A DNA stretch of 64,000 nucleotides from a bacterium D16-50 (lineage in GTDB: Bacteria; Bacillota; Clostridia; Lachnospirales; Lachnospiraceae). A program made the position numbers and the translations under genes. The notes under the pieces were generated by a model. The model was not told where the DNA came from. It saw only the letters and a list, made by a program, of their open reading frames with translations, and searched no databases. The first letter of the stretch is position 1. Each line of letters begins with the position of its first letter. The stretch is from positions 62,001-126,000 of the forward strand of contig RAZA01000004.1 of the NCBI GenBank assembly GCA_003612485.1. The letters are read 5' to 3'. This document shows positions 11,316 through 59,113 of this stretch, piece after piece.

Positions 11316-11579
11316 CTGAACCCGTGGATGATGGGAGATAAGAAGAACTGCCGGCTCTCATGCCTGAATCCGTGGATGATGGGAGATAAGAAGAACTGCC
11401 AGCTCTCGTGCCTGAACCCATGGGTGTGTGGGGGGATTGCCGGTTCTCGTGCCTGAACCCGTGGATGATGGGAGATAGGAGGAACTGCTGGTTCTCGTGC
11501 CTGAACCCGTGGGTGATGGGAGATAGGAGGAATTGCCGGTTCTCGTGGCTGAATCTATGGATGATGGGAGATAGGTTCT
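11311..11579. repeat. 48-bp tandem repeat array, six units
   Basis: Units start at 11311, 11359, 11407, 11448, 11496 and 11544. Four are exactly 48 bases; the third (41) and sixth (36) are shortened. Each begins CGTGCCTGAACCCGTGGATG or a close variant and ends CCGGTTCT or similar. The beginning of the first unit overlaps the right arm of the fold-back element, so the array may have grown out of that end. Repeats are adjacent without spacers, so this is not CRISPR. Confidence 0.75.
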
Positions 11580-11703
11580 CATGTCTGGATCCGGAGAGCG
11601 GGACAAGGGAAAGGAATCAAAGGGAAGTCTTCCGGTGGGGAGTAAATGAATCAATAGGGGTCATTATGGCCGAGATTATTAGTATAGTAGGAGGAGTTGG
11701 AGT

Positions 11704-12555: not shown

Positions 12556-12603
12556 AAGGATTGGATATAACAGAATAGGGCTTTGCAGTATGAAAAGTGA
12601 CAG

Positions 12604-12724
12604 TCCCATGCAGGATAAGAAAGCGATTTTTGTTTCCATGCGGAATGAGCCGAGCGCCGTGCTTGCGCGAGCAAAAGGCCATGGAACATGATTTGGTGCC
12701 GGATATTTTGCATGGGATTTTTTT
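12604..12724 (+). ncRNA. Possible structured RNA ending in a T tract
   Basis: TCCCATGCA (12604-12612) pairs with TGCATGGGA (12709-12717), which is followed by seven T bases. Inside, TTCCATG (12634-12640) pairs with CATGGAA (12680-12686), and GCGC (12654-12657) can pair with GCGC (12665-12668). The nested stems with a terminal T run suggest a small RNA or complex terminator in the 270-base gap. A 33-codon open frame from about 12591 overlaps it but has no good ribosome binding site. Confidence 0.4.
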
Positions 12725-12825
12725 AGAAAAATTGTCTGGGAGGGGTTCCTGAAATGAGTAAAGAGGAGTCTTGGGGCAGACGCATAGGGCCAAAAGGCCG
12801 GAAAGGGTAGAATAGGGTGTTTGGA

Positions 12826-43440: not shown

Positions 43441-43545
43441 CGTGGGGCCGGTTCATATTTTATTTGACTTTTTACCGATATGGTCATAGACTGAAAATAT
43501 GACATGAAAAAACGCGCCCTATGGGGCAGGAGGAAAGAACAGACC

Positions 43546-45042: not shown

Positions 45043-45046
45043 GGAA

Positions 45047-45238
45047 ATTGGGCTGAGGTATTATGATCCGGAACGAGGAAGCCTTCGGGGAATCAGAGGG
45101 GCTTATGATCCGGAACGATATATTTCACAAAGACTGATGGTTGGGCAGACGCTGCAGGAACTATGGGGCGTCTGCCTGACGTGCAGGCAGGAGCAGAAAC
45201 GATTCATGTGCCTTTGTACAATGGAAGGGCCTGCCTGA
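45047..45238 (+). pseudogene. Possible RHS/YD-repeat remnant
   Basis: In one frame the gap after the GH51 gene reads GLRYYDPERGSLRGIRGAYD followed by PERYISQRL, then stays open to TGA at 45236. GLRYYDPExG and YISQ are hallmarks of RHS repeat-associated core ends, and the YDPER segment appears twice as if by a slipped duplication (direct repeat TATGATCCGGAACGA). No start codon or upstream RHS sequence exists, so it can only be a fragment. The match is short and chance is possible. Confidence 0.35.
45172..45190 (+). other. Short hairpin before the PL11 gene
   Basis: CTGCCTG-ACGTG-CAGGCAG forms a 7-bp stem about 50 bases before the first possible start of the lyase gene. It resembles the CCTGCC-GGCAGG hairpins at 38171 and 38261. 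Confidence 0.35.
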
Positions 45239-45242
45239 ACAT

Positions 45243-47519
45243 ATGATGCGGAATGAAGGAATGGCGAGGGAAGGCATGTTGAGAAGGGGAAGCAGGAAAG
45301 AAACGGGACAAGATGTATATTCAGATCCGCTTAACGGGAAAAGGCAGCAGGAAGCTTGTCCGGGCATAGGGGACGGCAAAAGGCGGGGAAAGGGCAGGCT
45401 AGGGATATGGGGGTTGGCATTGTGCATGACGGCAGCGCTGACAGCCTGCGGAGAGGAAAACCGCCCCCCGGAGGAAGGGCTGAGTTCTGCGGCGGACATG
45501 TCCGCGGAGGCGTCAGAGTCTGGGGACGCCTCCGGGCAGGCATCAGAGGAGCCCAAGGAGACCCAGACTCCTGAGCAGACCCCTGAGCCGGAAACGGATC
45601 CTGCGGTGACGGTCTACGGGGAGCTGAGCAGTGTGGGCCAATATGCCCCTGCGGAGACTTATTCCCGCCGGGGACTGGTGGCGGTGAAGGCCGAGAACGG
45701 CGTTTTCGTCAGCTGGAGGAGCTTTGGGGCGGACTCGGATGCCGTCAGCTTTACGCTGGAGCGCAACGGGACTTTGGTCTATTCCGGCCCGCTGACCAAC
45801 TATCTGGATACGGAGGGCCGTCCGGGGGATGCTTATAGACTCACTGCAAGCGAGGGAATCTCCTCACAAGGGGAGGAAACTCTGGCCTGGGAGGCCGAGT
45901 ATCAGGAGTTTGTGCTGAAAGTGCCGGAGCCGCAGATGATGCCGGATGCCAGTGTCACCCATTATACGGCCAATGATATGTCCGTAGGGGATCTGGACGG
46001 GGACGGAGAGCTGGAGCTGGTGGTGAAATGGTATCCCGACAATGCACAGGACAACTCCAAGGACGGGTATACGGGAACCACCTTTCTGGATGCCTACGAC
46101 ATCGACATTGCCTCCGGGGATGCCCGGCTGATGTGGCGTATAGACCTTGGACTGAACATCCGCTCCGGGGCCCACTACACCCAGTTTCAGGTATGGGACT
46201 ATGACGGTGACGGCAGGGCGGAGCTGATCTGCAAGACTGCCGACGGCACAACCACCTATGACGGAAATCTGCAGGAGACGGGACATGTGGGGGCTGTCAG
46301 CATGGGGGAGCTGAATGTGACCGATAGGAGCAATCCCACGGGATATGACTTCCGCCTGCACAGCGGCAGGCTGGGCCGCATCGTGAAGGGGCAGGAATAT
46401 CTGACCGCCTTCGACGGCGAGACGGGCAGTATCGTGGACACGGTGGAATATATTCCTGCCAGAGGGCCCTATGATGAAGCGTCCGGAACCTGGGATACCA
46501 GCAACTGGGGCCTGAAGAACGGGGTGCCTGCGGAGAAGAACGACGGATATGCCAATCGGGCGGACCGGTTCCTTTCAGCCACCGCTTATCTGGACGAAGG
46601 ATCTGCCTGCGCTGTCTTTGCCAGAGGCTACTATGGCAGGACGGCCATCACAGCATGGAAGCTTATAGACGGGAAGCTTGAGATGAAATGGGCCTTTGAC
46701 GCCCCCAATGAATCAAAATACGCGGCTCAGGGGAACCACGGCCTGTCTGTGAACGATGTGGACGGGGACGGTCTGGACGAGATCATATATGGCTCTCTGA
46801 CCATGGATGATGACGGGACGCCCCTTTACGTCACCGGACTTGGGCATGGGGATGCCATGCATGTCAGCGACTGGAACGGGGACGGGAGGCTTGAGGTGTT
46901 TCAGGTGCATGAGGAGGCCGGGGCCCAGTACCATGTGGAGCTGCACGACGCAAAGACAGGGGAGATTCTGTGGGGCTATTACAACGGCAAGGACACTGGC
47001 CGGGGCGTGGCGGCGGATATAGATCCCCGCTATCCCGGAGCGGAGATGTGGTGCGCCGTCACCAACGTGACCTATGACTGTCAGGGCAATATCATCTATG
47101 AGGATGCCAAGCCCAGCCAGAATTTTTCCATCTTCTGGGACGGGGATCTGCTGATGGAGCTGTTCGACTATGATTCCGTAGAAGGAAATGTGCCTCAGGT
47201 ACAGAAATGGGATTATGAGAATCTAAAGACGGAAGTGCTTCTTGAGGCTCAGGGCGCAGCCTTGAACAACGGGACAAAGGGCAACGCAGGGCTGGTGGCA
47301 GATATCTATGGCGACTGGAGGGAGGAGTTCATCGTCAGGGATAGAGATGACAGCAGCAGGATCCGCATATATTCCACTGCCTTTGAGACGGAGTACGTGT
47401 TTCCTTGTCTTCTGGAGGATAGGGCTTATCGGGAAGGGGTGGCCTGGCAGAATGTTGCTTACAATCAGCCCGCAAACCTGACGGTGCTGTTGAGCAGGGA
47501 GCCGGACGCGGCCAGATAG
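45243..47519 (+). CDS. PL11-type rhamnogalacturonan lyase lipoprotein
   Basis: Exported lyase similar to B. subtilis YesW/YesX, which cut the rhamnogalacturonan I backbone of pectin. The hydrophobic LGIWGLALCMTAALTACGEE has a lipobox, so it should be anchored outside the cell, followed by a Glu/Pro/Thr-rich linker. The catalytic eight-bladed propeller carries repeated calcium-site motifs DLDGDGELEL, DYDGDGRAEL, DVDGDGLDEI and DWNGDGRLEV. The frame allows 758 residues, but about 50 residues before the signal is too long; ATG 45276 after GAGGGAAGG may be the true start, still with a long polar lead. It fits with the GH51 and GH127 genes. Confidence 0.88.
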   Translation: MMRNEGMAREGMLRRGSRKETGQDVYSDPLNGKRQQEACPGIGDGKRRGKGRLGIWGLALCMTAALTACGEENRPPEEGLSSAADMSAEASESGDASGQASEEPKETQTPEQTPEPETDPAVTVYGELSSVGQYAPAETYSRRGLVAVKAENGVFVSWRSFGADSDAVSFTLERNGTLVYSGPLTNYLDTEGRPGDAYRLTASEGISSQGEETLAWEAEYQEFVLKVPEPQMMPDASVTHYTANDMSVGDLDGDGELELVVKWYPDNAQDNSKDGYTGTTFLDAYDIDIASGDARLMWRIDLGLNIRSGAHYTQFQVWDYDGDGRAELICKTADGTTTYDGNLQETGHVGAVSMGELNVTDRSNPTGYDFRLHSGRLGRIVKGQEYLTAFDGETGSIVDTVEYIPARGPYDEASGTWDTSNWGLKNGVPAEKNDGYANRADRFLSATAYLDEGSACAVFARGYYGRTAITAWKLIDGKLEMKWAFDAPNESKYAAQGNHGLSVNDVDGDGLDEIIYGSLTMDDDGTPLYVTGLGHGDAMHVSDWNGDGRLEVFQVHEEAGAQYHVELHDAKTGEILWGYYNGKDTGRGVAADIDPRYPGAEMWCAVTNVTYDCQGNIIYEDAKPSQNFSIFWDGDLLMELFDYDSVEGNVPQVQKWDYENLKTEVLLEAQGAALNNGTKGNAGLVADIYGDWREEFIVRDRDDSSRIRIYSTAFETEYVFPCLLEDRAYREGVAWQNVAYNQPANLTVLLSREPDAAR

Positions 47520-47576
47520 AGAGATTTTTCAAATAAAAAGAGCCGTTCCTGCAAAAGATGCTTTACGGCGGAAAGA

Positions 47577-47610
47577 ATTGCCCTGACTCCTGCAGGGGAG
47601 TCAGGGCAAT
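47577..47610. terminator. Bidirectional terminator-like hairpin
   Basis: A perfect 14-bp stem (47577-47590 with 47597-47610, core GCCCTGACTCC) lies between the plus-strand lyase gene and the minus-strand small peptide gene. On the minus strand TCTTTC follows; on the plus strand CTTATG. A weaker GCCGT-ACGGC hairpin at 47542-47569 precedes it. Confidence 0.65.
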
Positions 47611-47663
47611 CTTATGTATGCGGTGGGAATGCTTCCTTCCCTCTGTTTTTTAAGTTCTTTTTT

Positions 47664-47777
47664 TCAGTCAGTGCTTTCGTCCGCGTCTGCCGCCACGGCG
47701 GAAACCACGCTGGAAACAACGGAAACCACTACCGCAAACAAGATGATCAGTAAGCCGCCTGCCAGAACAATAAACAT
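47664..47777 (-). CDS. 37-residue single-pass membrane peptide
   Basis: Small gene with all parts of a transcription unit. Translation gives MFIVLAGGLLIILFAVVVSV, then VSSVVSAVAADADESTD: a single hydrophobic helix (residues 2-31) and a short acidic C-terminal tail. GAGAGG lies 7-8 bases before the ATG. A consensus extended -10 promoter is at 47831-47859 and a terminator-like hairpin at 47577-47610. I recognise no family. It could be a small regulatory membrane protein or a type I toxin-like peptide; no antisense RNA was identified. It diverges from the operon beginning at 47950. Confidence 0.65.
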   Translation of the reverse strand: MFIVLAGGLLIILFAVVVSVVSSVVSAVAADADESTD

Positions 47778-47830
47778 GATATCGTACCTCTCTTCGTTTC
47801 TCGTGAAGCGCACCAACGACGCTTAGATGC

Positions 47831-47859
47831 ATTATAGCACCTTTTTGCGGAAATCACAA
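47831..47859 (-). promoter_or_regulatory. Promoter of the 37-residue membrane peptide
   Basis: On the minus strand: TTGTGA (47854-47859), 17-base spacer, TATAAT (47831-47836) preceded by TGC (extended -10). It is among the best promoter matches in the window. Confidence 0.75.
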
Positions 47860-47949
47860 GACACAATCGCAGCTGAGGATCATTTTCCGATATTTTGTCT
47901 CCGGAAAATTCGGCCCCCGGTATGATTATTATAAGGAAGATGCCTGACC

Positions 47950-48951
47950 ATGGGAGATGAAACAAAATGGATCAATCGAATAAGCCCGGTGGAAGCCCAG
48001 CAGCTGACAGTCCGTATCCTGACGGTGCTGCCGGAGTCTGCCGCCAGAGACGTGCTGAACGGGCTGTCGGGCCGTGCAGACAGCGTTTTGCCGGATGTGG
48101 TGAGACAGTTGGAGCTCTGCCTTGGACTGAGCAGCGAGCTGAGGAGTGATCCGGCCCGCTATGACAGTCTGGAGGCGCTTTCCATGGCAGCCCTGCGGCG
48201 GCAGACCAACCGGGAAGCATTGAAGAAGCAGGAGTACGGAGCCGTGCTGGGTGTGAACAGAATGCAGAGGAGCCGGCTGGAGAAGGGGACTGCAGTGCTT
48301 TCTCTGGAACAGGTCAGGAACCTCTGCGGCGGGTTTCGGGATCCGGTGCAGAGGCAGTTCTGGGAGAATCTGTTTTTGGAACGGTATCCGGATATGGCGG
48401 ACAGGGGCAGGGAGGCCGGGCCGGCACAGGCCGCTCTGGAGCTGCTTTTGGAGCTTCTTGAGGAGGATAGCCGTCGGATGGCGGCAAATCTTTTGGATGG
48501 CCGGGAGAGGGAAATCCTGAGCCGGATCATGGGACCTACGGTGGAGAAGCCTGATCCTCAGGCTTTCGGCGGAGAACCTGACAGGCTGTATCCCGTGCTT
48601 GCATGGCTTTCGGCCCGGCAGGGTATGCTGATAGCGGATGTGGCGGCGGAGGAGATCGGCATCAGCTCCAATACATGGTATGCATGGAAAAAGGTCTGGG
48701 AGGAGGCCGAACGGAGCGGTTTTCAAAAAGGGATACCCAAGAATCGGCTGAAGCGGGTTCATATGATTCTGCTGGGGATCCTGTTCGGGCTGGATTATCC
48801 CCAGAGCGTATATTTTCTGGCGCTGTCAGGATACCGCTATGTGTCCGGGGAACCGGACGATGCGGTTCTTGGGTATTTGAGATCTTCCGTCGGCTCTCGG
48901 GAAGAGCTGGCGCGCTATTTGAAGGAAGGCATCCATACCGGAAAATGGTAG
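47950..48951 (+). CDS. Uncharacterised protein with HTH-like segment, first gene of novel cluster
   Basis: Protein of 333 residues that I cannot place in a family. Around residues 92-125 the sequence KKQEYGAVLGVNRMQRSRLE resembles an XRE-type helix-turn-helix. The second half contains ADVAAEEIGISSNTWYAWKK, which also looks like a helix-turn-helix recognition segment, then a hydrophobic MILLGILFGLDYPQSVYFLA. No signal peptide. AAGGAAG lies 8 bases before the ATG. It heads a run of eight same-strand genes and may be its regulator or an adaptor; both are inferences. Confidence 0.75.
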   Translation: MGDETKWINRISPVEAQQLTVRILTVLPESAARDVLNGLSGRADSVLPDVVRQLELCLGLSSELRSDPARYDSLEALSMAALRRQTNREALKKQEYGAVLGVNRMQRSRLEKGTAVLSLEQVRNLCGGFRDPVQRQFWENLFLERYPDMADRGREAGPAQAALELLLELLEEDSRRMAANLLDGREREILSRIMGPTVEKPDPQAFGGEPDRLYPVLAWLSARQGMLIADVAAEEIGISSNTWYAWKKVWEEAERSGFQKGIPKNRLKRVHMILLGILFGLDYPQSVYFLALSGYRYVSGEPDDAVLGYLRSSVGSREELARYLKEGIHTGKW

Positions 48952-49050
48952 GCAGACACATAGGCCGAAATCGGGCAAAAAGGCAGCCATTGTGGATAAG
49001 GAAGGACGGGCGCAGGGCATTTAAGGGGCAAAGACAGGGAGCAGAGGACA

Positions 49051-50079
49051 ATGAAGGCGGACGATAGGAGTTTTGAGATCAATTATAAGGATTTGGTTCG
49101 GATTTCGGATAGGGGAGAGGACATCTACGGAAGCGAGCTTGGCAGGGACATAGTCAGGGCAGGCTGTGGGGACTGCGCCGTTGCTCTCTCGGTGTCCATG
49201 CTGAAGATGCAGCTGGAGCAGGAGTGGTTCTTTAGCCGGAGGGGCGATCAGGCCATGGCATGTGCCGTCGGCGGGCCGGAATTTTCCCGATTGCTGCATC
49301 AAACCGTCTGCGAATGTGTGGGCAGGCGTCTGGAGCGGTATCGGGGGCCGGCAAAAAGGGGTGCGCTTTTGAACCTGATATACAGTCTGGAAGGGCTTTT
49401 GCCCAAAGGGAAGAATCTCTGGACGGAACGGGACAGGGCTGTGGCCGCCCGCCTGCCCGAGGACGAGCTGATATCTCTGGCGGCCTATGAGGCGCAGCGC
49501 CATGCGGGCGGGCTGTGGGCGGCCTATGGGCAGGAGGACAAAAAAGCTGCGGATGAGCCCCAAAAGCCTATTGTCCGGTCAGGCTGTCATGCTGCGGCAG
49601 CGGCGCTTGCGCTGGCCGCCTATGCGGAATATTCCGATCTGCGCTGTGCGCCGGAGTTGTTGGCAGATATTTCCGCCGCCGCCGCCCATATAGCCTATGC
49701 GAAGCCCAAGGAGGCTTTGACCGCTGCGGGTTACATGGCTCTGCTGACCGCTGCCGCATCCTTGGTGGATCTGGCGGAGGCGCCCCTGTCCGAAATAGAG
49801 GACGAGGAGACCGGAATGGGGGCCCGGATATCCCGAGAACGGGCGGAGGCTTTTTTTCGGCCTTTCATGGGTCTTTTTTCCATAGGCCTGAAATTGGCTA
49901 TGGGCGCCGAGGCCATAGGCCTGCTGGAGGAGGCCGCTGCCGCTGTCAGAGACTTTGTGCCGGAAGCGGAGCAGCCCCCGGCGGCGGATATCCGTTCATG
50001 GCAGGCGGAAACCGGGGAAGGGGAGGCGGAGCCCGTCTCCGAGGCAAAGATATGGGAGCAGGAAGGGGAGTTTTGCTGA
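49051..50079 (+). CDS. Uncharacterised alanine-rich protein of the novel cluster
   Basis: Protein of 342 residues without recognisable family. It begins FEINYKDLVRISDRGEDIYG and is mostly predicted helix, with Ala-rich stretches such as HAAAAALALAAYAEYSD and ALTAAGYMALLTAAASLVDL. These are weakly hydrophobic and might be buried helices rather than membrane spans. The C-terminus is acidic and Pro-rich. It starts 100 bases after the first cluster gene with GAGG close to the ATG. No catalytic motif was seen. Confidence 0.72.
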   Translation: MKADDRSFEINYKDLVRISDRGEDIYGSELGRDIVRAGCGDCAVALSVSMLKMQLEQEWFFSRRGDQAMACAVGGPEFSRLLHQTVCECVGRRLERYRGPAKRGALLNLIYSLEGLLPKGKNLWTERDRAVAARLPEDELISLAAYEAQRHAGGLWAAYGQEDKKAADEPQKPIVRSGCHAAAAALALAAYAEYSDLRCAPELLADISAAAAHIAYAKPKEALTAAGYMALLTAAASLVDLAEAPLSEIEDEETGMGARISRERAEAFFRPFMGLFSIGLKLAMGAEAIGLLEEAAAAVRDFVPEAEQPPAADIRSWQAETGEGEAEPVSEAKIWEQEGEFC

Positions 50080-50110
50080 GGGCTGCCGGGGCATGTAACA
50101 ATTTTTTGTG

Positions 50111-50139
50111 ATGACAATGGGGAAGGCCGGATGTAAGAT
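50111..50139 (+). promoter_or_regulatory. Possible internal promoter in the novel cluster
   Basis: ATGACA (50111-50116), 17-base spacer and TAAGAT (50134-50139), in the 142-base gap before the gene at 50222. Confidence 0.45.
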
Positions 50140-50221
50140 AGAGACAGTCAAGGCGAAAGGATCCGGTTCGCCGGACGGGACGGAAGGAACCGATCATCAT
50201 GAAAAATAGGAGGAGCAGGAT

Positions 50222-51472
50222 ATGAATATCAAGAAAAATCTCAATGATATGACAGGCGCGGCGGCGGAGCTTCGCGAAGGCATGAAGGGCGTTTGGCTGG
50301 CAAAAAAGATCAAGGATGAGCTGGACGGCGGAGCCGATCTGGAGGATATCGTGCTGCGCTACGTTCCCGTTCTGGACGCGGCGACGGTCTACAGCGATAT
50401 GGATCAGCTGCGTATGGGGATTCAGAGCATGCAGGACGCCGCAAGGCAGACCGTGAGTTCCGGGTGGGTCAAAGAGCAGCTGGCGGATGCCTTGTGCGAG
50501 ATGGAAACCCAGCGGCGGGCGGTGTATCTCCAGAATCTGATCAAGGGTGTGGGGGCGGCTTATCCCGACAGCCTGCAAAATGAGGGGACTGCAGAGACTC
50601 TGGAAAGGCTGGAGGAGGCTCGTGAGTATACGGAGGAGGATGTAAGCGCCCTTCTGGACATAGCTGGAACCGTTCTGCCCCAGATAGGAGAGCTGCTTCA
50701 GCGCAGCTGCGTGAAGGCCATGCTGGGTCGCATGGGCAAGCTGGATCACGACAAGGTGGCGGCAGTGATGGATTCTGACAAGGTGACAGTCACGGCATAT
50801 GCGGCTTCCTGTTATATCATGCAGAAGAGGGGCAGGTCGGTGAAGGCGGAGGGGCAGATCGACAAGAATACGCCGGCCTTCGCAGTGGGCGCTGCCGCGG
50901 CGGCAAGTGTGGAGAGCAGCAGGCTGGTGGAGCTGTACAACGTAGGCAAGCTCACAAAGGAGGATCTGACAGACGGACTGAGCAATATCTTTACGGCAGT
51001 GGTCACCTTCGTGGGAAAGAGCCTGCTGAGGCTTCTGGCATTGGGCATATATGTGGTGGCTGTGGTGGCTCTGGCGGAAGTGTTCTTTCACGTTTTCATA
51101 TCACTGGGGGCGTTTCTGTACTTCTCCTTGTTCTGGGTCGTGGTGGGATCGGCGCTGCTGGCCGCCGGCATACTGGGGAGCATCGCCACGGTGGAGGATT
51201 GCGAGGAGCTGATACAGAAGGCGTGGGAGCTTCTCAAGTCGCTGTGGGGCAAGATCGTATCCTTGTGGCATAAGGCGATTGGCGAGGATACCGCAGAAAA
51301 CTCCGCTGAGGAAGAGATGTCCATGGAAGAGGAAATGTCCATGGAAGAAGAGATGTCCATGGAGGAAGAGATGTCCATGGAGGAGGAAACGTCCATGGAA
51401 GAAGAGATGTCCATGGAAGAGGACGATGAGGATGATGAGGCCGAGGACGATTTTGAAGGTTCTTTTGCCTGA
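50222..51472 (+). CDS. Membrane protein with acidic SMEEEM repeat tail
   Basis: Protein of 416 residues, not assigned to a family. Residues 1-260 are helical and soluble-looking (LREGMKGVWLAKKIKDELDG at the start). Two membrane helices follow at about 268-290 and 294-318 (LLALGIYVVAVVALAEVFFH and FLYFSLFWVVVGSALLAAGI). The C-terminal tail after residue 360 consists of six copies of the hexapeptide SMEEEM and ends in a strongly acidic stretch. AGGAGG precedes the ATG. In the cluster it may anchor the other proteins to the membrane, with the acidic tail as a docking or variable region; this is inference. Confidence 0.75.
   Translation: MNIKKNLNDMTGAAAELREGMKGVWLAKKIKDELDGGADLEDIVLRYVPVLDAATVYSDMDQLRMGIQSMQDAARQTVSSGWVKEQLADALCEMETQRRAVYLQNLIKGVGAAYPDSLQNEGTAETLERLEEAREYTEEDVSALLDIAGTVLPQIGELLQRSCVKAMLGRMGKLDHDKVAAVMDSDKVTVTAYAASCYIMQKRGRSVKAEGQIDKNTPAFAVGAAAAASVESSRLVELYNVGKLTKEDLTDGLSNIFTAVVTFVGKSLLRLLALGIYVVAVVALAEVFFHVFISLGAFLYFSLFWVVVGSALLAAGILGSIATVEDCEELIQKAWELLKSLWGKIVSLWHKAIGEDTAENSAEEEMSMEEEMSMEEEMSMEEEMSMEEETSMEEEMSMEEDDEDDEAEDDFEGSFA
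51311..51420 (+). repeat. 18-bp coding tandem repeat
   Basis: About six copies of an 18-base unit (GAAGAGATGTCCATGGAA and close variants) at the end of the preceding gene encode SMEEEM hexapeptides. As the unit is a multiple of three, copy changes keep the frame. Confidence 0.8.
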
Positions 51473-51488
51473 GAAAAGTAAGGTTTCG

Positions 51489-51533
51489 GGGCTGTTCCAT
51501 GTGTGGAGCAGCCCTATCGGCCTATAGGCCGAT
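51489..51533 (+). terminator. Hairpin and 18-bp palindrome between cluster genes
   Basis: GGGCTG-CAGCCC with inner TCCA-TGGA (51489-51514) is followed at once by the perfect palindrome ATCGGCCTATAGGCCGAT (51516-51533). It lies between the repeat-tail gene and the gene at 51567. There is no T run, so it may be a processing site, an attenuator or a protein-binding palindrome. Confidence 0.45.
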
Positions 51534-51566
51534 GTCATATACCCATGATAGAGAGGTAGACAATAA

Positions 51567-52883
51567 ATGTCCGTTTATTACCAGAATGGTCCGGAGATCA
51601 CGAAAATTACAAGGAGAGGGCTGAATTCCTTGTCCATGCTGATCAGCAGGAAGCAGTATCGGATATCCGCGGCACAGCTCACAGACAAATTTGCCTGGGC
51701 CGATATCTATAGGGCCTGGATTATGGCGTGTGTGGATTATATGTGGTTCATGGAGCATGGAGATCCCGAAAAAGAGGCGCCGCAGGAGGAGCAGGTCCGC
51801 ATGGCGAAGCTGTTTCTGGAGGGGGCGGAAGAGTCCCGCTGCCATGAATTCCTGAACCGGTATCGAGAGATGCTGACAAGACCGCACTATCCGAATGTGG
51901 GCAGCAGCGCCGCCGCAGAAAAAATCTGCAGCGAAATTCATGGAAAGATGGCGGGGGCGCCTATTTGGCTGTGTATGCGGGTGACGGCGGTGTGTCTGTT
52001 GACCAACAGCCCTCCGGAAGTTATTTTTTCCGAAGGGCTGAAGTGGCCCGGGGCGCTGCTGGGGCCGACGATTGCAGCAAAGTATGAGTCCGGCGTCATA
52101 GATGTGCGGGAGGGTCTGTTATTTGAGCTTGAACCCGGCGCCGTCTCGGGGCCGGGAATGAAGCTGGCCCCCAGAACACTTCGGAATAAATACAATAAAG
52201 TATGCAGTGTTATCATTCGGTATAAGGGCATAGAGCATCTTGTAAAGATTCCTCCCTACGGATTCCTGAGGGCTGTATTTTCGGAGGGCAGCTGTGTCCG
52301 CTTGGTGAGCCTCAAGGGCGCTATCTCCTGCTGTGACGCCGGAAGCGCAATCCTCCAGAAGGGGGATGATCAAGGAAGCAGGCTGTTTTACGCCCACCGC
52401 AGCGGAGGCGCTTCCAGACTGGTGGGAATGCCCCTGATCGGCCCCTTCTGGGACGCCGCTGCAGACGAGAGAAGCGGGGTTACGGGAGCCGTGGTTCTGA
52501 CCGCCGGGGAGCTGTATTCCACCGTAGATCCCGGACGGAAGATCTCCGAGGGCGACAAAGCGCCGCTGCCTATCCGCTGTTACCGTTCGGGCAGCCAGTG
52601 GGGCTGGCTGTACGATGACGGTGTATTTGTGAGCAATCTGTCCGGCGGCAGGGATATGGAGGGCGTGACCGCCGTGGCCGAGGAGGCGGGACGGGGGCTG
52701 CTGATCTGCCGTCAGGGGCAATTTCTGGACTATCGCAGCAATGTGGAAAGGCAGATAACCGAAGGGGAATTCGTGCAGGCCATGCTGGGCCGTTTCCTGC
52801 AGGCGGGGCAGGACGAGTGCGAGGCTTTGTCCACCCAGTTCATGAGGTGGGCAATTCTGGATTCCGGGGAGGTAAGGCAGTGA
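51567..52883 (+). CDS. Uncharacterised protein of the novel cluster
   Basis: Protein of 438 residues with no family I can name. The N-terminal half is helical (SLSMLISRKQYRISAAQLTD). The C-terminal half, from about 200, alternates short strands and turns, for example VSLKGAISCCDAGSAILQKG and SQWGWLYDDGVFVSNLSGG, like a repeat-built beta domain. No signal peptide or membrane helix. GAGAGGT lies upstream of the ATG. Its stop overlaps the start of the next gene (GTGA), so the two are translationally coupled. Confidence 0.75.
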   Translation: MSVYYQNGPEITKITRRGLNSLSMLISRKQYRISAAQLTDKFAWADIYRAWIMACVDYMWFMEHGDPEKEAPQEEQVRMAKLFLEGAEESRCHEFLNRYREMLTRPHYPNVGSSAAAEKICSEIHGKMAGAPIWLCMRVTAVCLLTNSPPEVIFSEGLKWPGALLGPTIAAKYESGVIDVREGLLFELEPGAVSGPGMKLAPRTLRNKYNKVCSVIIRYKGIEHLVKIPPYGFLRAVFSEGSCVRLVSLKGAISCCDAGSAILQKGDDQGSRLFYAHRSGGASRLVGMPLIGPFWDAAADERSGVTGAVVLTAGELYSTVDPGRKISEGDKAPLPIRCYRSGSQWGWLYDDGVFVSNLSGGRDMEGVTAVAEEAGRGLLICRQGQFLDYRSNVERQITEGEFVQAMLGRFLQAGQDECEALSTQFMRWAILDSGEVRQ

Positions 52884-53476
52884 AGAGGAATGGTGAGAAG
52901 GGCGGAAAAGGCAGCGGCGGACAAGGCGGAGGGCCTGACGGAGAACGGAAATGTGATGAAAGCGCCGGAAAACTGAAGCGTAATAGCCAGAAAACCGAAA
53001 AGCGGGAAGCCGAGAAGCAAAAAGGCAAGAAGCAAAAAGCCGAAAAGCAGAAAACCGAACAGCAAAAAGCCGAACAGCAAAAAAACAAGAGTCAGGAGCC
53101 GGGATATGGGCTGGCGGAGAGGCTGTTGCTGGAACAGTCTATAGCCAAGCTGGTCAACGGGCAGACAGGGCTTTTGATGTTTCTGGATATGCTGCTGCAA
53201 GATGCGGAGGAAAAGGATCTTGCCGGATTTTCATGCCATGCCGAGGGGTATCTCAGAAGAACGGAGAAGCTGAAACCGCTCTTTGCCCGCTATAAGATGT
53301 ACGAGCCCCAAAGTTCGGAGGCGGCGCCCTATCAGGTTCTTTTAAAAATAGGGAATAATCTGGAGAAGAAGATGCGGACAATCCCTTCGGAAGGACTGTC
53401 CCATCAGGAGCTGGACACATGGAGGAAAATGGTGCTGCGGCGCATGGATCTCTACGGTGACCGGGAGAAAGGGTGA
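52880..53476 (+). CDS. Uncharacterised Lys/Gln-rich protein sharing a GQTG domain
   Basis: Protein of 198 residues starting at GTG 52880, which overlaps the previous stop by 4 bases and follows GGGGAGGT. Residues 1-75 are a highly charged low-complexity region made of KQK/AEKQK/TEQQK units. The folded part starts with LLLEQSIAKLVNGQTGLLMF and continues LDMLLQDAEEKDL. The same pattern, LEQ-x6-GQTG-x4-LDM, occurs in the gene at 53572, so the two are paralogues. Function unknown. Confidence 0.75.
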   Translation: MKRNGEKGGKGSGGQGGGPDGERKCDESAGKLKRNSQKTEKREAEKQKGKKQKAEKQKTEQQKAEQQKNKSQEPGYGLAERLLLEQSIAKLVNGQTGLLMFLDMLLQDAEEKDLAGFSCHAEGYLRRTEKLKPLFARYKMYEPQSSEAAPYQVLLKIGNNLEKKMRTIPSEGLSHQELDTWRKMVLRRMDLYGDREKG

Positions 53477-53542
53477 AGACCCGGTGGAAGTATTGCAGGG
53501 ATGGGCATGGGGATTCAATGCCTGAAATATTTTGGCTGTTTG

Positions 53543-53556
53543 CCCGCTGAAGCGGG
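53543..53556 (+). other. Short hairpin before the small membrane gene
   Basis: CCCGC-TGAA-GCGGG forms a 5-bp stem with a tetraloop just upstream of GGGGG, the ribosome binding site region of the gene at 53572. Confidence 0.4.
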
Positions 53557-53571
53557 TACGGGGGTGTGAGC

Positions 53572-54006
53572 ATGAATTTCATAATATTGCTGCTGGGGGC
53601 TGCGGCTGCGTTGGCCGTGGCGGCGGTCTGTATAGTGCTGGGGGCGGGCGAGGCCAGACGAAGGAGGCAGGCTCCCCAAAATCCAACTGTGCCGTCCGGT
53701 TCTAAGACATCGGGCCGGGAGCTGCTGGCACGTAAATTTGCGCTGGAACAACAGATGGCGGCTATAGCGGGAGGACAGACGGGGATGTTCGTGCTGCTGG
53801 ACATGATCCGAAACTGTCCTGCAGGAGGAGATGTGGAGCGGTATCGGGACAGCTATAGGAGTAAACAGAAGAAGCTGCGGGGATATGTGGAGGAGTACGG
53901 GCTTGTCCTTGCGCGGGCTGCCAATCTGCCTGAGGAGGAGAAGGCCCGGTTCGTCCCGGAAGAAGACCTTCACCGCTATAAGATGCTGGTGTCTGCAGAG
54001 GTATAG
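53572..54006 (+). CDS. Small membrane-anchored paralogue with GQTG domain
   Basis: Protein of 144 residues. An N-terminal hydrophobic helix (FIILLLGAAAALAVAAVCIV) is followed by a positively charged stop (EARRRRQ), so it is probably anchored with the rest in the cytoplasm. The body contains ALEQQMAAIAGGQTGMFVLL and DMIRNCPAGGDVERYRDSY, matching the preceding gene over about 60 residues. The pair looks like a tandem duplication in which one copy gained a membrane anchor and the other a charged N-terminus. Function unknown. Confidence 0.75.
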   Translation: MNFIILLLGAAAALAVAAVCIVLGAGEARRRRQAPQNPTVPSGSKTSGRELLARKFALEQQMAAIAGGQTGMFVLLDMIRNCPAGGDVERYRDSYRSKQKKLRGYVEEYGLVLARAANLPEEEKARFVPEEDLHRYKMLVSAEV

Positions 54007-54061
54007 CCAATGAGAAACGTCGGTTCCGGCGGGAAATGAAAAAAGGAGGAAGGTTGAAAAG

Positions 54062-56332
54062 ATGAACGGAGAGATAGAAGCGCTTCTGAAGGCAATTCTT
54101 GAGATGGACGAGCTGCCTGTGGAGTGGCTGGACAGAATTCAGAGCTGCGAATATCTGATCATATTGGACATGGGATGCGGAAGCACCAGCGCGGCGATTC
54201 TGGATTTGAAGGAGTTCGTCCGCAACGGGGCTGTGAAACTGCAGGAGTACCTATATCCTATCCTCTGGAATTACAAGACGCCCTCCGCAAGAGGCAATGG
54301 AACGCTGGAGATGGCGAACAAGCAGGTTTCCATACCCACGCTGATCGGATACAGCGACTTAAAACCCCTCATCGGGCCGGAGGCTCTGAACACGGGAAAT
54401 GTGTGCGAGAACTTCAAGGCTTGCCCCAGTGATCAGAATCTGAACAAGGTGGTGCTGCAGATTGCCACATGGGATCGCAAGCTGCTCTTCAGAAGGCTGG
54501 CTGATGTGTGGCCGGATTATTTCGGCTGTCTTATGGACCAGATCTGCCGCTGGATCCAAGAGAAGCGGATCGGCCAAGGAGACAGGCTGACCATGAGGCA
54601 GAATACTTTGATGATGGTGGCCCACCCTGCAGGCGCCGAATGGTCCAGACAGTCCGTGCTGAAAAGCTACCGGGATATAATTTCCAGAGGCACGGGACTG
54701 CCGAAGGAAAACATCCTTACCATCTCGGAGGCAAAGGCGGCCATGCAGTATGTGCGCAGGAAATATGACAAGGCCTTGGATTTCCATACTGGGGTGGTGA
54801 TCATCGACATCGGAGCCAGCACCATAGATGTGGAATATCTGGCGAGAGATTTGGCGGAACCTTACGAGTATTCCCTGACGATGGCAGGCAGAGACGTGGA
54901 CTTGCTGCTGCTGCACTATGTTCTGGAAAAGGTCTTTCCTTCCACCATGCAGGAATATCCCGATCCCCGGAGCCTGCCGGAGGAGAAGTTCTTTGGGGAA
55001 TTCTGTTCCTGCACAAGCGCTCTTCTGAAGTGGAACATGAGATCCAGTAAGGAGGACATTTCCAACATGGAGTATGATTCCGCGCAGCGGGGCAGCAGCT
55101 TTTCATACACGCTCAGGGATAAGGAGATCGTGATGAGCGCCGATGTGCTGTGCGGGCTTTTGGGCGACGAGACCAACGACCCGCTGACCGGCGCAATGTT
55201 CGGCGGCCGCAGCTTTGCTGTCAGCTATCCGCTGGAGATGGCTGCCTATGTCCATGACATGAGGGCGGGGGCAGGGGAGGCAGAGCCGTGGGGCTTTGCG
55301 GTGCAGGTGGTGGAGGACACATGGTACGGTCATCTGGAAAATCTGATCCGCTATGTAATGGATGATCTCGGGCAGAATGAGCGCAGAGCGGCTCAGGTCA
55401 TCGTCACAGGGGGATCTTGCCGGCTGGCGGGGATCCGGCCTCATATCTGGAATGCCATCCGCAATTCCGAGATGGGAGCGTTTCTGTGCAGGGAGGATCA
55501 GATTCTGTACATGGATAAGGAGAATGACTATGAAAACTCGGTTCCCTTTGGAGGCGGATACTATGTGGGCGGACTGCTGGGCCGTCTGAATGTGCTGCAG
55601 GAATTTCCCCAGAGACTGTACAAGGTGCTTTTTCAGGAACTGAAGGGAGCGGCCGCAAGAGAGATCACCAGAGAATTGAATGCTCTGGTCCGCGGCATCA
55701 CGCTGGAGACTCTGGAATGGTGGAAGAACCAGCCCTTGAAAAAGGCGGACGGCACTCAGAATGAGGACTGTTCCACATACCGGCTGAACGAGAAGCTGAA
55801 AAGCGACTGCACAAGAATCTTTCAGGAGACGGCGAAGCTTAATGAGGCTATGGAGCGGGCAACTAAAAATATTGTGCCGAAAGTGAGCCTGCCCGATACC
55901 ATGAGGGTGATTATGAATCTGCTGGATACCCTTGCAGGGGCGAAATTTACAGGAACGGTGGATACGGATGCGGTGAAGATCCGTCTGCCGGTGGAAAGGG
56001 TTTCCCGGGCGGTCAGAGAGGTGGATCCGGATACTCTTCACCTTGAATTCTGGAAGTCTATAGGAGGGCTGCTGCAGGATCTGGGCAATACCATATTGAA
56101 CTGGTTCGGGATGGGGGTGGAGCGTGACGATATTTTGAGGAGCGCGTCATACCGCGCCGCGGTGTATGAGGCCTATAAAGGCAGTGAGCGGGATTCCGTG
56201 GAGTGGCTGCTGGAAAAGGAGATATCCCTGAGGCTGGACTATGAGTTCAAGAAGACCGATATTTTCAATATTCCCGATCAGATCATCAGAGGGCTGAAGC
56301 AGGATGTCATGAGGGCCCTATATCTGAACTGA
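54062..56332 (+). CDS. Hsp70/actin-fold (ASKHA) ATPase, uncharacterised
   Basis: Protein of 756 residues with an Hsp70/actin-type nucleotide fold. Phosphate-1 motif: YLIILDMGCGSTSAAILDLK at 31-50. A strand like the Hsp70 VTVPA region is LMMVAHPAGAEWS near 183-195. Phosphate-2 motif: VVIIDIGASTIDVEYL at 245-260. The adenosine motif is VIVTGGSCRLAGIRPHIW. The protein lacks the ordinary DnaK substrate domain; its last 250 residues are mostly helical. It has some likeness to large ASKHA proteins such as SrfB, but I cannot assign it. AAGGAGG precedes the ATG. The AAA+ gene follows after 55 bases, suggesting a joint ATP-driven machine. Confidence 0.82.
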   Translation: MNGEIEALLKAILEMDELPVEWLDRIQSCEYLIILDMGCGSTSAAILDLKEFVRNGAVKLQEYLYPILWNYKTPSARGNGTLEMANKQVSIPTLIGYSDLKPLIGPEALNTGNVCENFKACPSDQNLNKVVLQIATWDRKLLFRRLADVWPDYFGCLMDQICRWIQEKRIGQGDRLTMRQNTLMMVAHPAGAEWSRQSVLKSYRDIISRGTGLPKENILTISEAKAAMQYVRRKYDKALDFHTGVVIIDIGASTIDVEYLARDLAEPYEYSLTMAGRDVDLLLLHYVLEKVFPSTMQEYPDPRSLPEEKFFGEFCSCTSALLKWNMRSSKEDISNMEYDSAQRGSSFSYTLRDKEIVMSADVLCGLLGDETNDPLTGAMFGGRSFAVSYPLEMAAYVHDMRAGAGEAEPWGFAVQVVEDTWYGHLENLIRYVMDDLGQNERRAAQVIVTGGSCRLAGIRPHIWNAIRNSEMGAFLCREDQILYMDKENDYENSVPFGGGYYVGGLLGRLNVLQEFPQRLYKVLFQELKGAAAREITRELNALVRGITLETLEWWKNQPLKKADGTQNEDCSTYRLNEKLKSDCTRIFQETAKLNEAMERATKNIVPKVSLPDTMRVIMNLLDTLAGAKFTGTVDTDAVKIRLPVERVSRAVREVDPDTLHLEFWKSIGGLLQDLGNTILNWFGMGVERDDILRSASYRAAVYEAYKGSERDSVEWLLEKEISLRLDYEFKKTDIFNIPDQIIRGLKQDVMRALYLN

Positions 56333-56387
56333 TAGGTTTGCTATGATAGCCGGACCGGCAGGGGCCGGAGCGCAGGGAGGTATCGCT

Positions 56388-58427
56388 ATGAAAAATAAGG
56401 ATCTTTCGCCCGTTAGGAGCGCGGCGAAACAGCTTGCCGGGCTTCTGCCCCGCCCGGAGCTTCCGGAAGGGGAAATGTGGCAGTTTTTTCACTTTCAGAC
56501 CAACGACTATTGCACCGTGGAACGAACTGTAAGACTGGCCTGCGAACAAAAGGGGATGCCGGGACAGCCTCTTTTTGTATCTGCGGGGGAGTTCTGCGGC
56601 TGGGTTTCCGGCGGGGCCGGAAAGAAAAGAAAAGAGGATGATTATGATTTCCAAGGGGCGGAAGAGCTGCAGGAGGGGCTGCGGGAAGGCCACCTGATCT
56701 TTGTGTGGCAGGCATTTATGAAGAACGAGTCCGGTCAGGCCAGAGATCCCAAGTACAGTCAGCTGATGCTGGAATTTTTGCGCTATTGCGAGAATCAGCG
56801 GGCCGAGGGGCTTTGGGCAGGGGAACATGGCAGAGCATGGGACGGGGGAGAAGATATTTCAAAAAAAGTGATTTTTATCTCTTACGGGCCCTCTTGTCCG
56901 CTGCCGGAGCTTCTGCGGGAATCTCTGCGCACTATCTCGTATGCCCCTTTGGCCCCGGAGGATTTTTCCGATCTGCTGGGGGAGTACTGGCATCGGCAGG
57001 AGGAGTGCAGACAGCGCAGGTACGGGGGCAGGGAGCTGGCGGAGGTTCTGCTGGGACCTGCGGGAGAGTGTCCCGTCTTCGATTCTAAGACACTGGAATG
57101 GTATGCCGACAATATGGCAGGTATATCGGAGGCCAATGTCCGCAGGCTGTTTATGGAAATGCTTTCTCAGGATTATGTGGATTTTGCCAGAACGGATGAA
57201 ATAGAACGGATCATCGTCAATTATAAAAACAAAGTTCTCCAGCAGCACGGGCGTCTGGAGGTTCTGTCGGCGGGGAGCGTGGAAGGAAAAGGAATCTATG
57301 GACTGGACACGGTTGAAAGCTGGCTGAGGAAGCATGAGAGAATCATCAGAAAGCCGGGACTTGCCCCCGGGGGCATACTCTTGGTGGGAATTCCCGGCAC
57401 AGGAAAATCGGCCACGGCCAAGATGGCGGCGCAGGTTATGCACCTGCCGCTGGTGAAGCTGGACATGTCCCGGATTTTGGGCGGCTACGTGGGGGACTCG
57501 GAAAAAGGCATGAGAGAGATGCTGGAGGATCTGAAGTTCGCCGCGCCCTGCGTCCTATGGATCGACGAGGTGGAGAAGGCCATGAGCGGTGCAAACGGGA
57601 AAAGGGGGGAAGGCTCCGGAGTGATGGAGAGGCTTTTCGGCATGCTGCTGACGTTCATGCAGGAGAACGATAGAATCGTCTTTTCCGTCACCACGGCCAA
57701 CGATATCAGCCAGCTTCCCCCGGAATTTTTCCGGAACGGACGGTTTGATCAGGCATTCTGCGTGATGATGCCGGAATACAGCGGCTGCTGCAGGATCATG
57801 CAGGGGAAGCTTGCGCCCTATATGCGTTCTCTGGGGTGGCTGGGGCCCAAAGAGTCGGTGTCCGCAGGTTATGCCAGAGAGGTGTTTGACGCCTGCATCG
57901 GCACAAAGGAGCGGCCTCGGTTTCTCACCGGAGCCGACATTGAGGCCCATGTCAAGGAACTGTTCTGTGACTATGGGGAGGGCAGGGGAGGCTGTCCGCC
58001 GGCGGAAGAGATGGCGGACAGGATGCGGCAGGTGGCCGGGCAGATGCGCGCTCAGGGATCTGCAGACTCTGTGGCCTCCATGCGGGATATTGCGTCCAGA
58101 TATCTGGATATGATCCAGAGGGGGTTCATAATGGCAGGTTCATCGGAGACGCCTTTTGCAAAGGAGAATCTGAATCTCAATGCGGTGCGGTACTATGAAT
58201 ATGAAAAGGGCCACAAGGCGCTGCCGGAGAGCTGCGTCCTCCATCCCGATCCGGAAAAGCTTCTAAGGGCGCTGGAGTCCGATGTTCCGGCGGAGTGGTA
58301 TGATGCAAGGTTCTTTCAGTGTGTGGTGCATGAGATGGATGAAACGGTCATCTTTGACCGTGAGCTGACCTTGGAGGAAACCCGTAAAGCCTATCATGAA
58401 CTGATGGTTTCGGCCCGGAGGCGTTGA
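56388..58427 (+). CDS. AAA+ ATPase, Ycf46/CDC48-like, of the novel cluster
   Basis: Protein of 679 residues. The first 300 resemble the N-terminal part of Ycf46-type AAA proteins (FVWQAFMKN, LMLEFLRYCENQ, KKVIFISYGPSCPLPELL). Walker A is LLVGIPGTGKSATAK (334-341 core), the pore-loop region KLDMSRILGGYVGDSEKGM, Walker B CVLWIDEVEKAM, sensor 1 in TTANDISQLP, and the arginine motif FFRNGRFD. A second helical region follows after 500. ATG 56388 follows AGGGAGGT; the frame is open from 56343. It probably remodels or unfolds a partner in this cluster. It is the last gene before the repeat region. Confidence 0.85.
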   Translation: MKNKDLSPVRSAAKQLAGLLPRPELPEGEMWQFFHFQTNDYCTVERTVRLACEQKGMPGQPLFVSAGEFCGWVSGGAGKKRKEDDYDFQGAEELQEGLREGHLIFVWQAFMKNESGQARDPKYSQLMLEFLRYCENQRAEGLWAGEHGRAWDGGEDISKKVIFISYGPSCPLPELLRESLRTISYAPLAPEDFSDLLGEYWHRQEECRQRRYGGRELAEVLLGPAGECPVFDSKTLEWYADNMAGISEANVRRLFMEMLSQDYVDFARTDEIERIIVNYKNKVLQQHGRLEVLSAGSVEGKGIYGLDTVESWLRKHERIIRKPGLAPGGILLVGIPGTGKSATAKMAAQVMHLPLVKLDMSRILGGYVGDSEKGMREMLEDLKFAAPCVLWIDEVEKAMSGANGKRGEGSGVMERLFGMLLTFMQENDRIVFSVTTANDISQLPPEFFRNGRFDQAFCVMMPEYSGCCRIMQGKLAPYMRSLGWLGPKESVSAGYAREVFDACIGTKERPRFLTGADIEAHVKELFCDYGEGRGGCPPAEEMADRMRQVAGQMRAQGSADSVASMRDIASRYLDMIQRGFIMAGSSETPFAKENLNLNAVRYYEYEKGHKALPESCVLHPDPEKLLRALESDVPAEWYDARFFQCVVHEMDETVIFDRELTLEETRKAYHELMVSARRR

Positions 58428-58480
58428 TTCGCTTCCGGGCTTGAAGGGAGAAGGAACAGGGGAAAAGGGACAAAGGAGGC

Positions 58481-58890
58481 AGTGGGAAAGCGTTGGGGAA
58501 AGATCCGACAGCATTGGCAAGGAAGGATCGGGAGGGTAGCAGGAAAGCATCAGGAGGGCATGGCAAAGTATCGGGAGGGCATGGGAAAGCATTTTTGAAA
58601 GATCATAGCATTGGCAAGGAAGGATCAGGAAGACAGCAGGAAAGCGTCAGGAGGGCATGACAAAGTATCGGGAGGGCATGGGAAAGTATTTGGGAAAGAT
58701 CAGACAGCATTGGCAAGGAAGGATCGGGAGGGTAGCAGGAAAGCATCAGGAGGGCATGGCAAAGTATCGGGAGGGCATGGGAAAGTATTTGGGAAAGATC
58801 ACAGCATTGGCAAGGAAGGATCGGGAGGGTAGCAGGAAAGCATCAGGAGGGCATGGCAAAAGATCGGGAATACATCAGGAAAGTATTGAG
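58481..58890. repeat. 97-99 bp purine-rich minisatellite
   Basis: Units beginning AGCATTGGCAAGGAAGGATC start at 58510, 58607, 58706 and 58803, giving lengths of 97, 99 and 97 bases plus a partial fourth; a partial copy precedes them from about 58481. Inside each unit a shorter motif (GGAGGGCATGGCAAAGTAT) is itself repeated. The strand is strongly purine-biased. Unit lengths are not multiples of three, so this is unlikely to be coding. Confidence 0.8.
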
Positions 58891-58969
58891 AAGTCATTGA
58901 GAAGATATCAGCAGAATTTAGTAATATTAAATTATTTTAAGTAAAATTCACGAATCCTATTTTGGGGTA

Positions 58970-58998
58970 TTGACAATTTGAGGTAGAGGGTGTACCTT
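58970..58998 (+). promoter_or_regulatory. Possible promoter of the Tad pilus operon
   Basis: Perfect TTGACA (58970-58975), 17-base spacer and a poor -10, TACCTT (58993-58998). The surrounding 100 bases are AT-rich, unlike the repeats before them. The weak -10 suggests activator dependence. Confidence 0.4.
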
Positions 58999-59007
58999 TA
59001 TAGGTAC
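58992..59007. promoter_or_regulatory. Inverted repeat over the -10 region
   Basis: GTACCT-TTAT-AGGTAC is a perfect 6-bp inverted repeat overlapping the candidate -10 box, the right place for an operator of a dimeric regulator. Confidence 0.4.
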
Positions 59008-59113
59008 TTAGTGACACGTCGACGGCTAAGAATCTTTTTCTGAGTAATGTTTTTTCTAGGTAATGTATTATCAAAGAGGCCGGGTCAGGCCATTTATCAT
59101 CGCTGCAGTATCT

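Follow-up and report, generated by a model that had tools for sequence, protein, structure and literature searches.

The stretch of DNA analysed here, a 64,000-nucleotide window (positions 62,001 to 126,000 of the forward strand of contig RAZA01000004.1, assembly GCA_003612485.1) from bacterium D16-50, a member of the Lachnospiraceae, carries a run of eight open reading frames (ORFs), g1 to g8, all on the plus strand and spanning 47950-58427 in window numbering, which is used throughout. These genes constitute a real and rare gene set in which an Hsp70-like ATPase (g7) and an AAA+ ATPase (g8) form a core that is accompanied by membrane proteins. The set is undescribed as far as the literature was searched: no account of it was found among open-licence articles in PMC, a limited negative that does not extend to bioRxiv. 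We lean towards interpreting the cluster as a chaperone machine that remodels proteins at the membrane and has a regulator of its own. This interpretation draws on the families and motifs of the two ATPases, hydrophobic segments in several of the proteins, the repeated occurrence of g7 and g8 as neighbours, purifying selection on the genes and the grouping of the AAA+ proteins in phylogenetic trees.

Two ATPases form the core of the cluster

The g7 gene (54062-56332, plus strand) encodes 756 amino acids (aa). To relate it to known proteins, we ran a family profile built from seven g7 relatives (A7) against PDB sequences. It matched 126 sequences at E <=0.01, the best being DnaK (6e-10); 59 of the 60 matches listed carry Hsp70-family chaperone names, and the other has no name. 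The single g7 sequence has no Pfam Hsp70 match and gave only sub-cut-off matches of MreB and MamK type (Pfam, NCBIfam). The phosphate-1, phosphate-2 and adenosine motifs picked out in an earlier, sequence-only reading of this DNA align in all seven family members (the L061 protein, introduced below, is not in the alignment). Also invariant in 7/7 are DxGxxT and the Glu, predicted to be catalytic, of an EPTAAA-like motif.

An AlphaFold2 model of g7 based on a four-sequence alignment has a mean predicted local distance difference test score (pLDDT) of 50 and a predicted template modelling score (pTM) of 0.45. Residues 27-511 of this model match FtsA, DnaK, ParM and MamK structures in the PDB at Z 12.4-13.5, nearly a tie. 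Foldseek, which the earlier reading had proposed for every protein, was run with g7 and returned ASKHA folds at low whole-length template modelling scores of 0.12-0.25. Given the near tie in structural scores, the fold of g7 is ASKHA (about residues 27-511, the remainder being predicted helical), while the assignment to Hsp70 comes from the sequence matches. Judged in that way, g7 is an ASKHA ATPase with a nucleotide-binding domain best matched by the Hsp70 type.

The g8 gene (56343-58427, plus strand; 694 aa), which encodes a long N-terminal part ahead of the AAA domain, is the sole cluster gene over the Pfam cut-off (AAA, E 3.7e-26, residues 345-473). A profile from seven g8 relatives (A8) run against the PDB found NVL, Cdc48 and p97 as best matches, with E down to 7e-61. 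Walker A, Walker B, the sensor-1 Asn and RFD are intact in all seven family members, which bears out the Walker, sensor 1 and arginine motifs of the sequence-only reading. The Ycf46-like label given there is approximate: g8 is related to stand-alone AAA+ proteins of the presumed Ycf46 type but probably separate from them, judging by the trees described next. Pore loop 1 reads GYVG in the window, and its aromatic position is Tyr in 5/7 members, Leu in G165 and Ile in L061. PADLOC models for IetA (best 2e-11) and TRIP13 match g8 in the AAA domain only. On sequence evidence, g8 belongs to the classical (Cdc48/p97-like) AAA+ ATPases, for which a hexameric threading ring is predicted.

An unrooted tree placed the seven AAA+ proteins of the system on one side of a branch and 60 stand-alone AAA+ relatives, which we take to be of the Ycf46 type, on the other (support 100/99; 100% of 200 bootstrap trees; L136 not included). 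In trees of the AAA+ core, the Shimodaira-Hasegawa-like approximate likelihood ratio support was 94, or 91 without G165 and 93 without the window pair.

The ATPase pair recurs in distant bacteria

Including the window, eight loci were compared. They are the window, G019 from the same genus, G313 from the same order (a 100% match to Clostridium sp. MCC353, contig NZ_WQPN01000156.1), G165 from the same family, G720 from the same order, and L059, L060 and L061, which are Bacteroidales metagenome-assembled genomes and are placed as labelled, as contigs of such genomes can be misbinned. G313 and the three Bacteroidales loci were the four with the system among the best 80 of 395 relatives found by searching genome contigs with the AAA+ profile A5. 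The g7 sequence as a query recovered G019 and, weakly, G313; g7 alone gave no match in a first search of genome contigs.

A g7-family ASKHA protein is encoded at seven of the eight loci, L061 being the exception, and the AAA+ protein at 7/7 loci of sufficient length. In the window and in G313, G165, L059 and L060, the g7 and g8 homologues follow each other in the same order with gaps of 10-55 bp; the gap is 240 bp in G019. Between G313 and the window, identity is 36% over 288 aa for g8 (E 1e-39) and 28% over 103 aa for g7 (E 1e-6). The proposal that two ATP-driven remodelling proteins are combined with membrane-anchored partners and satellites of unrecognised family is supported, and the core recurs in distant bacteria. 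Of the membrane proteins, g3 has counterparts by profile comparison in G165 (413 aa, P 4e-8; reversed 0.19) and L061 (471 aa, P 0.005; reversed 0.32), more weakly in a G313 pair (P 0.018; reversed 0.30), and not in G720 (P 0.23; reversed 0.057). The g3-type proteins of G165 and G313 match each other by BLAST at E 2e-6. A protein that, like g6, has an N-terminal hydrophobic segment is present in G313, G165 and L061.

The distant loci also have contents of their own. G313 has a co-directional run that begins with two membrane proteins and a gene weakly matched by HTH_17 (0.018) and continues with a 438-aa protein, a transmembrane protein, a 291-aa protein, the ASKHA and AAA+ ATPases and then a HELSH protein. 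G165 combines the ASKHA and AAA+ ATPases with its g3-type protein, and G720 an ASKHA protein with a membrane protein. L061 retains the AAA+ protein, the g3-type protein and an Hsp70, the last of a more ordinary kind (Pfam HSP70 9e-10; profile comparison P 5e-4 with L060 and 0.034 with G313). A weak A7 match in the L061 genome was rejected as the cluster gene, as it is the DnaK of that genome, on another contig. In the expanded L061 locus (3268-13254 of that locus), a HerA/DUF87 ATPase (Pfam 3e-10) and two HExxH proteins adjoin the AAA+ and Hsp70 genes. HExxH proteins stand beside the ATPase pair in G313, L060 and L061 and are homologous at P 1e-13 and 3e-12; together with genes of about 140 aa from the same three loci, they form sets homologous among themselves (P 5e-8 to 1e-13). 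The G313 438-aa and L061 286-aa proteins share a common N-terminal part (P 5e-5). There is no HExxH motif in g1-g8, and a search of the window for the ~140-aa family was negative. A 205-aa gene of L060 has a weak, sub-cut-off match to sigma-70 region 4 (0.002), and the genes at its position in L061 and L059 look similar by eye; the Bacteroidales versions may be under sigma-factor control.

As a separate observation, the 234-aa HExxH protein of L061 weakly matches window positions 31467-31718, outside the cluster (28% over 90 aa, E 4e-4). The other satellites of G313, L060 and L061 gave nothing in the window beyond this match.

Eight constrained genes, six of them without recognised family

The eight plus-strand genes with small gaps or overlaps, as first described, are present: from g1 to g8 the intergenic distances are 99, 142, 94, -4, 89, 55 and 10 bp, with g5 starting at GTG 52880. 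This start is probably the right one rather than 52817, because the g4 stop and the g5 start overlap as GTGA. In G019 all eight orthologues are kept in order, with 45-81% identity over the aligned parts. Ratios of nonsynonymous to synonymous substitution rates (dN/dS) between the window and G019 (Nei-Gojobori, NG86) are 0.26, 0.38, 0.34, 0.20, 0.30, 0.34, 0.25 and 0.12 for g1 to g8, the g5 value having been computed with start 52817. Because the ratio is 0.12-0.38 in 8/8, all eight genes are coding and constrained by purifying selection. The G+C content of the cluster (0.54-0.59) is similar to that of the flanking DNA, and a terminator-like hairpin, a consensus match only, lies upstream at 47577-47610.

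The statement that the first six families are unrecognised holds: g1-g6 have nothing over the Pfam or NCBIfam cut-offs and no PADLOC family match, and NCBIfam matches of the cluster proteins are all sub-cut-off. The first gene, g1 (47950-48951; 333 aa; G019 orthologue 71% identical), is a candidate helix-turn-helix (HTH) regulator. The HTH likeness noted earlier comes down to weak, sub-cut-off matches (Pfam HTH_31, E 0.14; NCBIfam PezA, E 0.008), and a 200-aa protein of G165 gives a weak profile match (P 0.038 versus 0.53 reversed). The Ala-rich g2 (49051-50079; 342 aa; orthologue 45%) is without a detected hydrophobic segment and without a match in Pfam, NCBIfam or PADLOC. In g3 (50222-51472; 416 aa), described from the start as a membrane protein with an acidic repeat tail, hydropathy analysis places a hydrophobic stretch at residues 256-325, long enough for about 2-3 membrane spans, and the EEEMSM tail is encoded by an 18-bp unit in 6.1 copies.

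The AlphaFold2 model of g4 (51567-52883; 438 aa) is of very low confidence (mean pLDDT 35), with a helical N-terminal and a beta-rich C-terminal part; it is too poor to bear the idea of a beta-propeller, which we set aside. The 438-aa protein at a similar position in G313 compares with g4 at P 0.1 versus 0.059 reversed, so that homology is not established. The remaining pair, g5 (52880-53476; about 198 aa, with a charged low-complexity N-terminal part; G019 orthologue 67% over 118 aa) and g6 (53566-54006; 146 aa, with one N-terminal membrane segment by hydropathy), share a GQTG domain. They are paralogues, as the sequence-only reading had it: window g6 matches G019 g5 with 54% identity over 28 aa (E 6e-6).

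Distribution

The cluster is rare. The counts are lower bounds, as samples overlap and the reach of the searches is limited. We found g7 in 2/138 genomes of the genus and, with the window g7 as a query, in 2/397 genomes of the family, its own included. With the G313 ASKHA protein as a query, 13/397 family genomes matched, of which 3 carry the system (window included) and 10 carry another ASKHA family. Profile A1 matched 9/392 genomes in the order sample, 2 of them with the system; A7 matched 2/196 in the class sample (its own genome and one partial, G1230); and 2/324 genomes matched in the order of the L060 genome (itself and one partial, G925). The G562 match in the order sample was rejected, as no system AAA+ protein is present at the locus.

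Carriage of g7 by phages or plasmids was considered and rejected, with two weak plasmid matches (E 0.4 and 0.5) and no phage match. For the G313 ASKHA protein there was no phage match and a single plasmid match, to Calothrix AP018209.1 (E 4e-20; 24% identity across 72% of the query), on which one AAA ATPase is annotated about 8 kb away, beside an integrase. A search of viral contigs with A5 gave 71 loci, none with an ORF matched by the ASKHA profile A6 at E <=1e-3. The Calothrix protein, from a conjugative plasmid (L209, 10821-12743), has no AAA+ gene annotated directly beside it.

The second ASKHA family, of about 636 aa, was excluded from the system count, having no system AAA+ gene adjacent; it accounts for 6/9 order matches and 10/13 family matches. 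Its members, with a FYGFDLGDAESAV-like start, occur at L040-L045, L047 and L049-L057 (10/397 family and 6/392 order genomes), and a gene of about 300 aa with two transmembrane segments is visible upstream in 15/16. At L050, a 689-aa AAA+ protein with two hydrophobic segments is encoded more than 2 kb from the ~636-aa ASKHA gene.

A candidate protein-remodelling machine at the membrane

ATPases of the Hsp70 type are known to bind their clients in the course of an ATP cycle, and rings of the Cdc48 type to thread proteins past an aromatic pore loop. We place the remodelling at the membrane because g7-g8 adjacency recurs and because hydrophobic segments occur in g3, in g6 and in two of the g7 homologues, those from L059 and L060, where a C-terminal segment has a mean hydropathy of 2.5 and 2.7. 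From these elements we infer the hand-over of a client, its threading, the membrane location and the role of every satellite gene. In the proposed scheme, g7 would bind and hold a client at the membrane, docked via the membrane proteins g3 and g6 and, in two Bacteroidales versions, via its own membrane segment. It would then hand the client to the g8 ring, whose aromatic pore loop would thread, unfold or extract it. The small g5 and g6 could act as adaptors, perhaps as nucleotide-exchange helpers, with g4 as a possible scaffold and g1 as the dedicated regulator; in some relatives a metallopeptidase-like protein could destroy the extracted client. The separate pairing of an AAA+ gene with Hsp70-like and GrpE genes at L122, L135 and L136 is counted in favour of this scheme.

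Several findings weigh against it. By profile comparison, g1, g2, g4, g5 and g6 of the window could not be tied convincingly to the distant clusters; the best P values are 0.038 for g1, 0.037 for g2, 0.077 for g4 and 0.073 for g5/g6. In the neighbourhood comparison that the sequence-only reading had called for, g7-g8 adjacency recurs, all eight genes are kept in G019, and these five genes could not be linked by sequence beyond the genus. After residue 490 the g7 model (pTM 0.45) is helical, at low confidence, rather than a beta substrate-binding domain, and hydropathy in the C-terminal part of window g7 peaks at only 0.8. Neither of the usual helpers was recognised: there is no J-domain match in the cluster (Pfam DnaJ; the sole HPD is in g8; the rest of the genome was not searched) and no convincing GrpE (profile P 0.45 with g5 and 0.59 with g6). 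A GrpE lead is confined to G313 and G165, where the C-terminal parts of three proteins give P 0.0012 versus 0.31 reversed when pooled and >=0.11 singly. The 6.5-kb contig of G720 has no AAA+ gene. In L061 the ATPase genes are in reverse order with one gene between them, and the cluster Hsp70 escaped the family profile when the loci were scanned. The branches leading to the system AAA+ proteins are very long, and long-branch attraction is possible.

A more specific and tentative proposal, to which we give a low probability, is that the system is a bacterial membrane dislocase, in which an Hsp70-like ATPase and a Cdc48-like ring, mounted on dedicated membrane proteins, would pull proteins or whole complexes out of the cytoplasmic membrane. 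An HTH switch would control the window type and a sigma-like gene the Bacteroidales versions, with client disposal by a metallopeptidase in some. Such a system would be a convergent prokaryotic counterpart of p97/Hsp70 quality control. Partnerships of Hsp70 and AAA+ proteins are central to protein quality control, and neither the family libraries nor the literature searched yielded a compact genetic unit in which membrane proteins are joined to an Hsp70-like ATPase and a Cdc48-type motor. It would offer a small bacterial model for the division of work between two ATPases at a membrane, and would give context to six gene families that are blank in libraries.

Alternative explanations

Alternatively, the cluster could be a defence or conflict system, in which the HTH protein would silence expression and the Hsp70/AAA+ pair would sense or activate g3 and g6, which would harm the cell upon infection, along lines proposed for other conflict systems under chaperone control. 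The spread is sporadic (g7 in 2/138 genus genomes, 3 system loci in 397 family genomes with the window included, and versions in another phylum), Hsp70, GrpE, classical AAA+ proteins and peptidases occur in described conflict systems (PMC7159879, PMC11090510), and the L061 Hsp70 weakly matches the defence candidate PDC-M61B (3e-5). Counter to this, no nuclease, toxin, vWA, MoxR or GTPase was found over the Pfam cut-off and PADLOC is blank for g1-g7. Eight flanking proteins at four distant loci gave one match, to DpdF helicase models over the last 57 residues only, and none of the plasmid or phage matches extends over 80% of g7 or of its G313 homologue. We retain defence as an unlikely but serious alternative in view of the patchy spread and of the chaperone NTPases that known conflict systems contain. 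Less probable still is a machine that would assemble or secrete one particular surface structure and of which the HerA-bearing L061 locus would be the more complete version. The HerA/DUF87 ATPase and two HExxH proteins of L061 would fit such a machine, but HerA was seen in L061 only among the eight loci, and g1-g8 contain no Pfam match to a secretin, channel or substrate family; the secretion role raised in the sequence-only reading found no support in the window.

We consider it very improbable that the cluster is an assembly or quality-control accessory of the adjoining Tad pilus. The TadA ORF follows the end of the cluster after 635 bp, on the same plus strand, and G019 has both, on two contigs that end between them. 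However, TadA/CpaF is encoded in 28/38 genus genomes (E <=1e-30) and g7 was found in 2/138. Among the Tad upstream regions examined, from G019 and 11 other genus genomes, cluster genes are absent in 11/11 of the latter (0.4 to ~15 kb examined; one contig stops shortly before TadA). The 6.5-40 kb examined at 6/6 distant clusters likewise showed no Tad operon, the sole match being one of 90 aa to TadC (E 0.001). On the regions examined, we reject Tad as partner, and the suggestion that it is the client is not supported. The site in the window looks like a variable spot before Tad. Equally remote, in our judgement, is a loose run of genes in which g7-g8 are the sole unit. The satellites g1, g2, g4, g5 and g6 are unlinked by sequence to distant loci, as such a run would predict, but eight genes are kept in order in G019 (45-81% identity) under selection, and g3 has relatives at G165 and L061.

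Upstream of Tad, the gene content of window positions 43504-59063 differs between genus genomes, and an arabinofuranosidase gene is found there in 5/11 of them, as in the window. Between g8 and the Tad genes lies a tandem array (58478-58869), which can be read as a 97-bp unit in 4.0 copies or a 196-bp unit in 2.0 copies; the contig ends of G019 flank this interval.

Comparison with described systems

The DnaK-ClpB (Hsp70-Hsp100) bichaperone consists of an Hsp70-type ATPase that works with an AAA+ threading ring. The cluster resembles it in the predicted pairing of these two elements, and differs in that its predicted ring is of the Cdc48 type, with a single AAA domain recognised, in the adjacency of the genes, in the inclusion of membrane proteins and in the lack of a J-domain match. 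In IetAS, the partner protein IetS is a protease. Unlike IetAS, g1-g8 have no IetS or peptidase match, and the IetA matches are limited to the AAA domain of g8.

In the described gene sets that come closest, nucleases, GTPases or PspA accompany genes of the Hsp70-like, Cdc48-like or GrpE kind (PMC11090510, PMC11237479, PMC7159879); g1-g8 match none of these three partner families. The extensions of Type III-A CoCoNuT systems (PMC11090510) resemble the cluster in that a single predicted operon encodes both an Hsp70-like protein and a CDC48-like ATPase, whereas the cluster is without a McrB GTPase, DUF2357 (CnuC), cold-shock, vWA or nuclease match. With the MoxR-vWA and GTPase-Hsp70-GrpE conflict systems (PMC7159879) the cluster shares chaperone NTPases whose partners vary; unlike those systems, g1-g8 have no MoxR, vWA, GTPase or effector match (Pfam, PADLOC). 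Classical AAA+ proteins with sub-membrane partners such as PspA (PMC11237479) resemble the cluster in joining such an ATPase to membrane proteins. The cluster differs from them in having no PspA/Snf7 match and an Hsp70-like ATPase instead.

The stand-alone AAA+ loci L122, L135 and L136 also combine a related AAA+ domain with an Hsp70-like gene. Unlike the cluster, they have Hsp70 and GrpE at Pfam level (L122, L135), HEAT partners and AAA+ proteins across the 100/99 branch. More generally, Hsp70-like genes occur <=10 kb from stand-alone AAA+ genes in 8/80 of the best genome loci (L122, L135, L136, L105, L111, L115, L099 and L114), and GrpE is found at L122, L126, L135 and L136 (Pfam GrpE 4e-10 in L122 and 5e-9 in L135). 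L135 also carries a HEAT gene, and DUF1257/Ycf35-like and radical-SAM-looking genes were seen by eye near some such loci.

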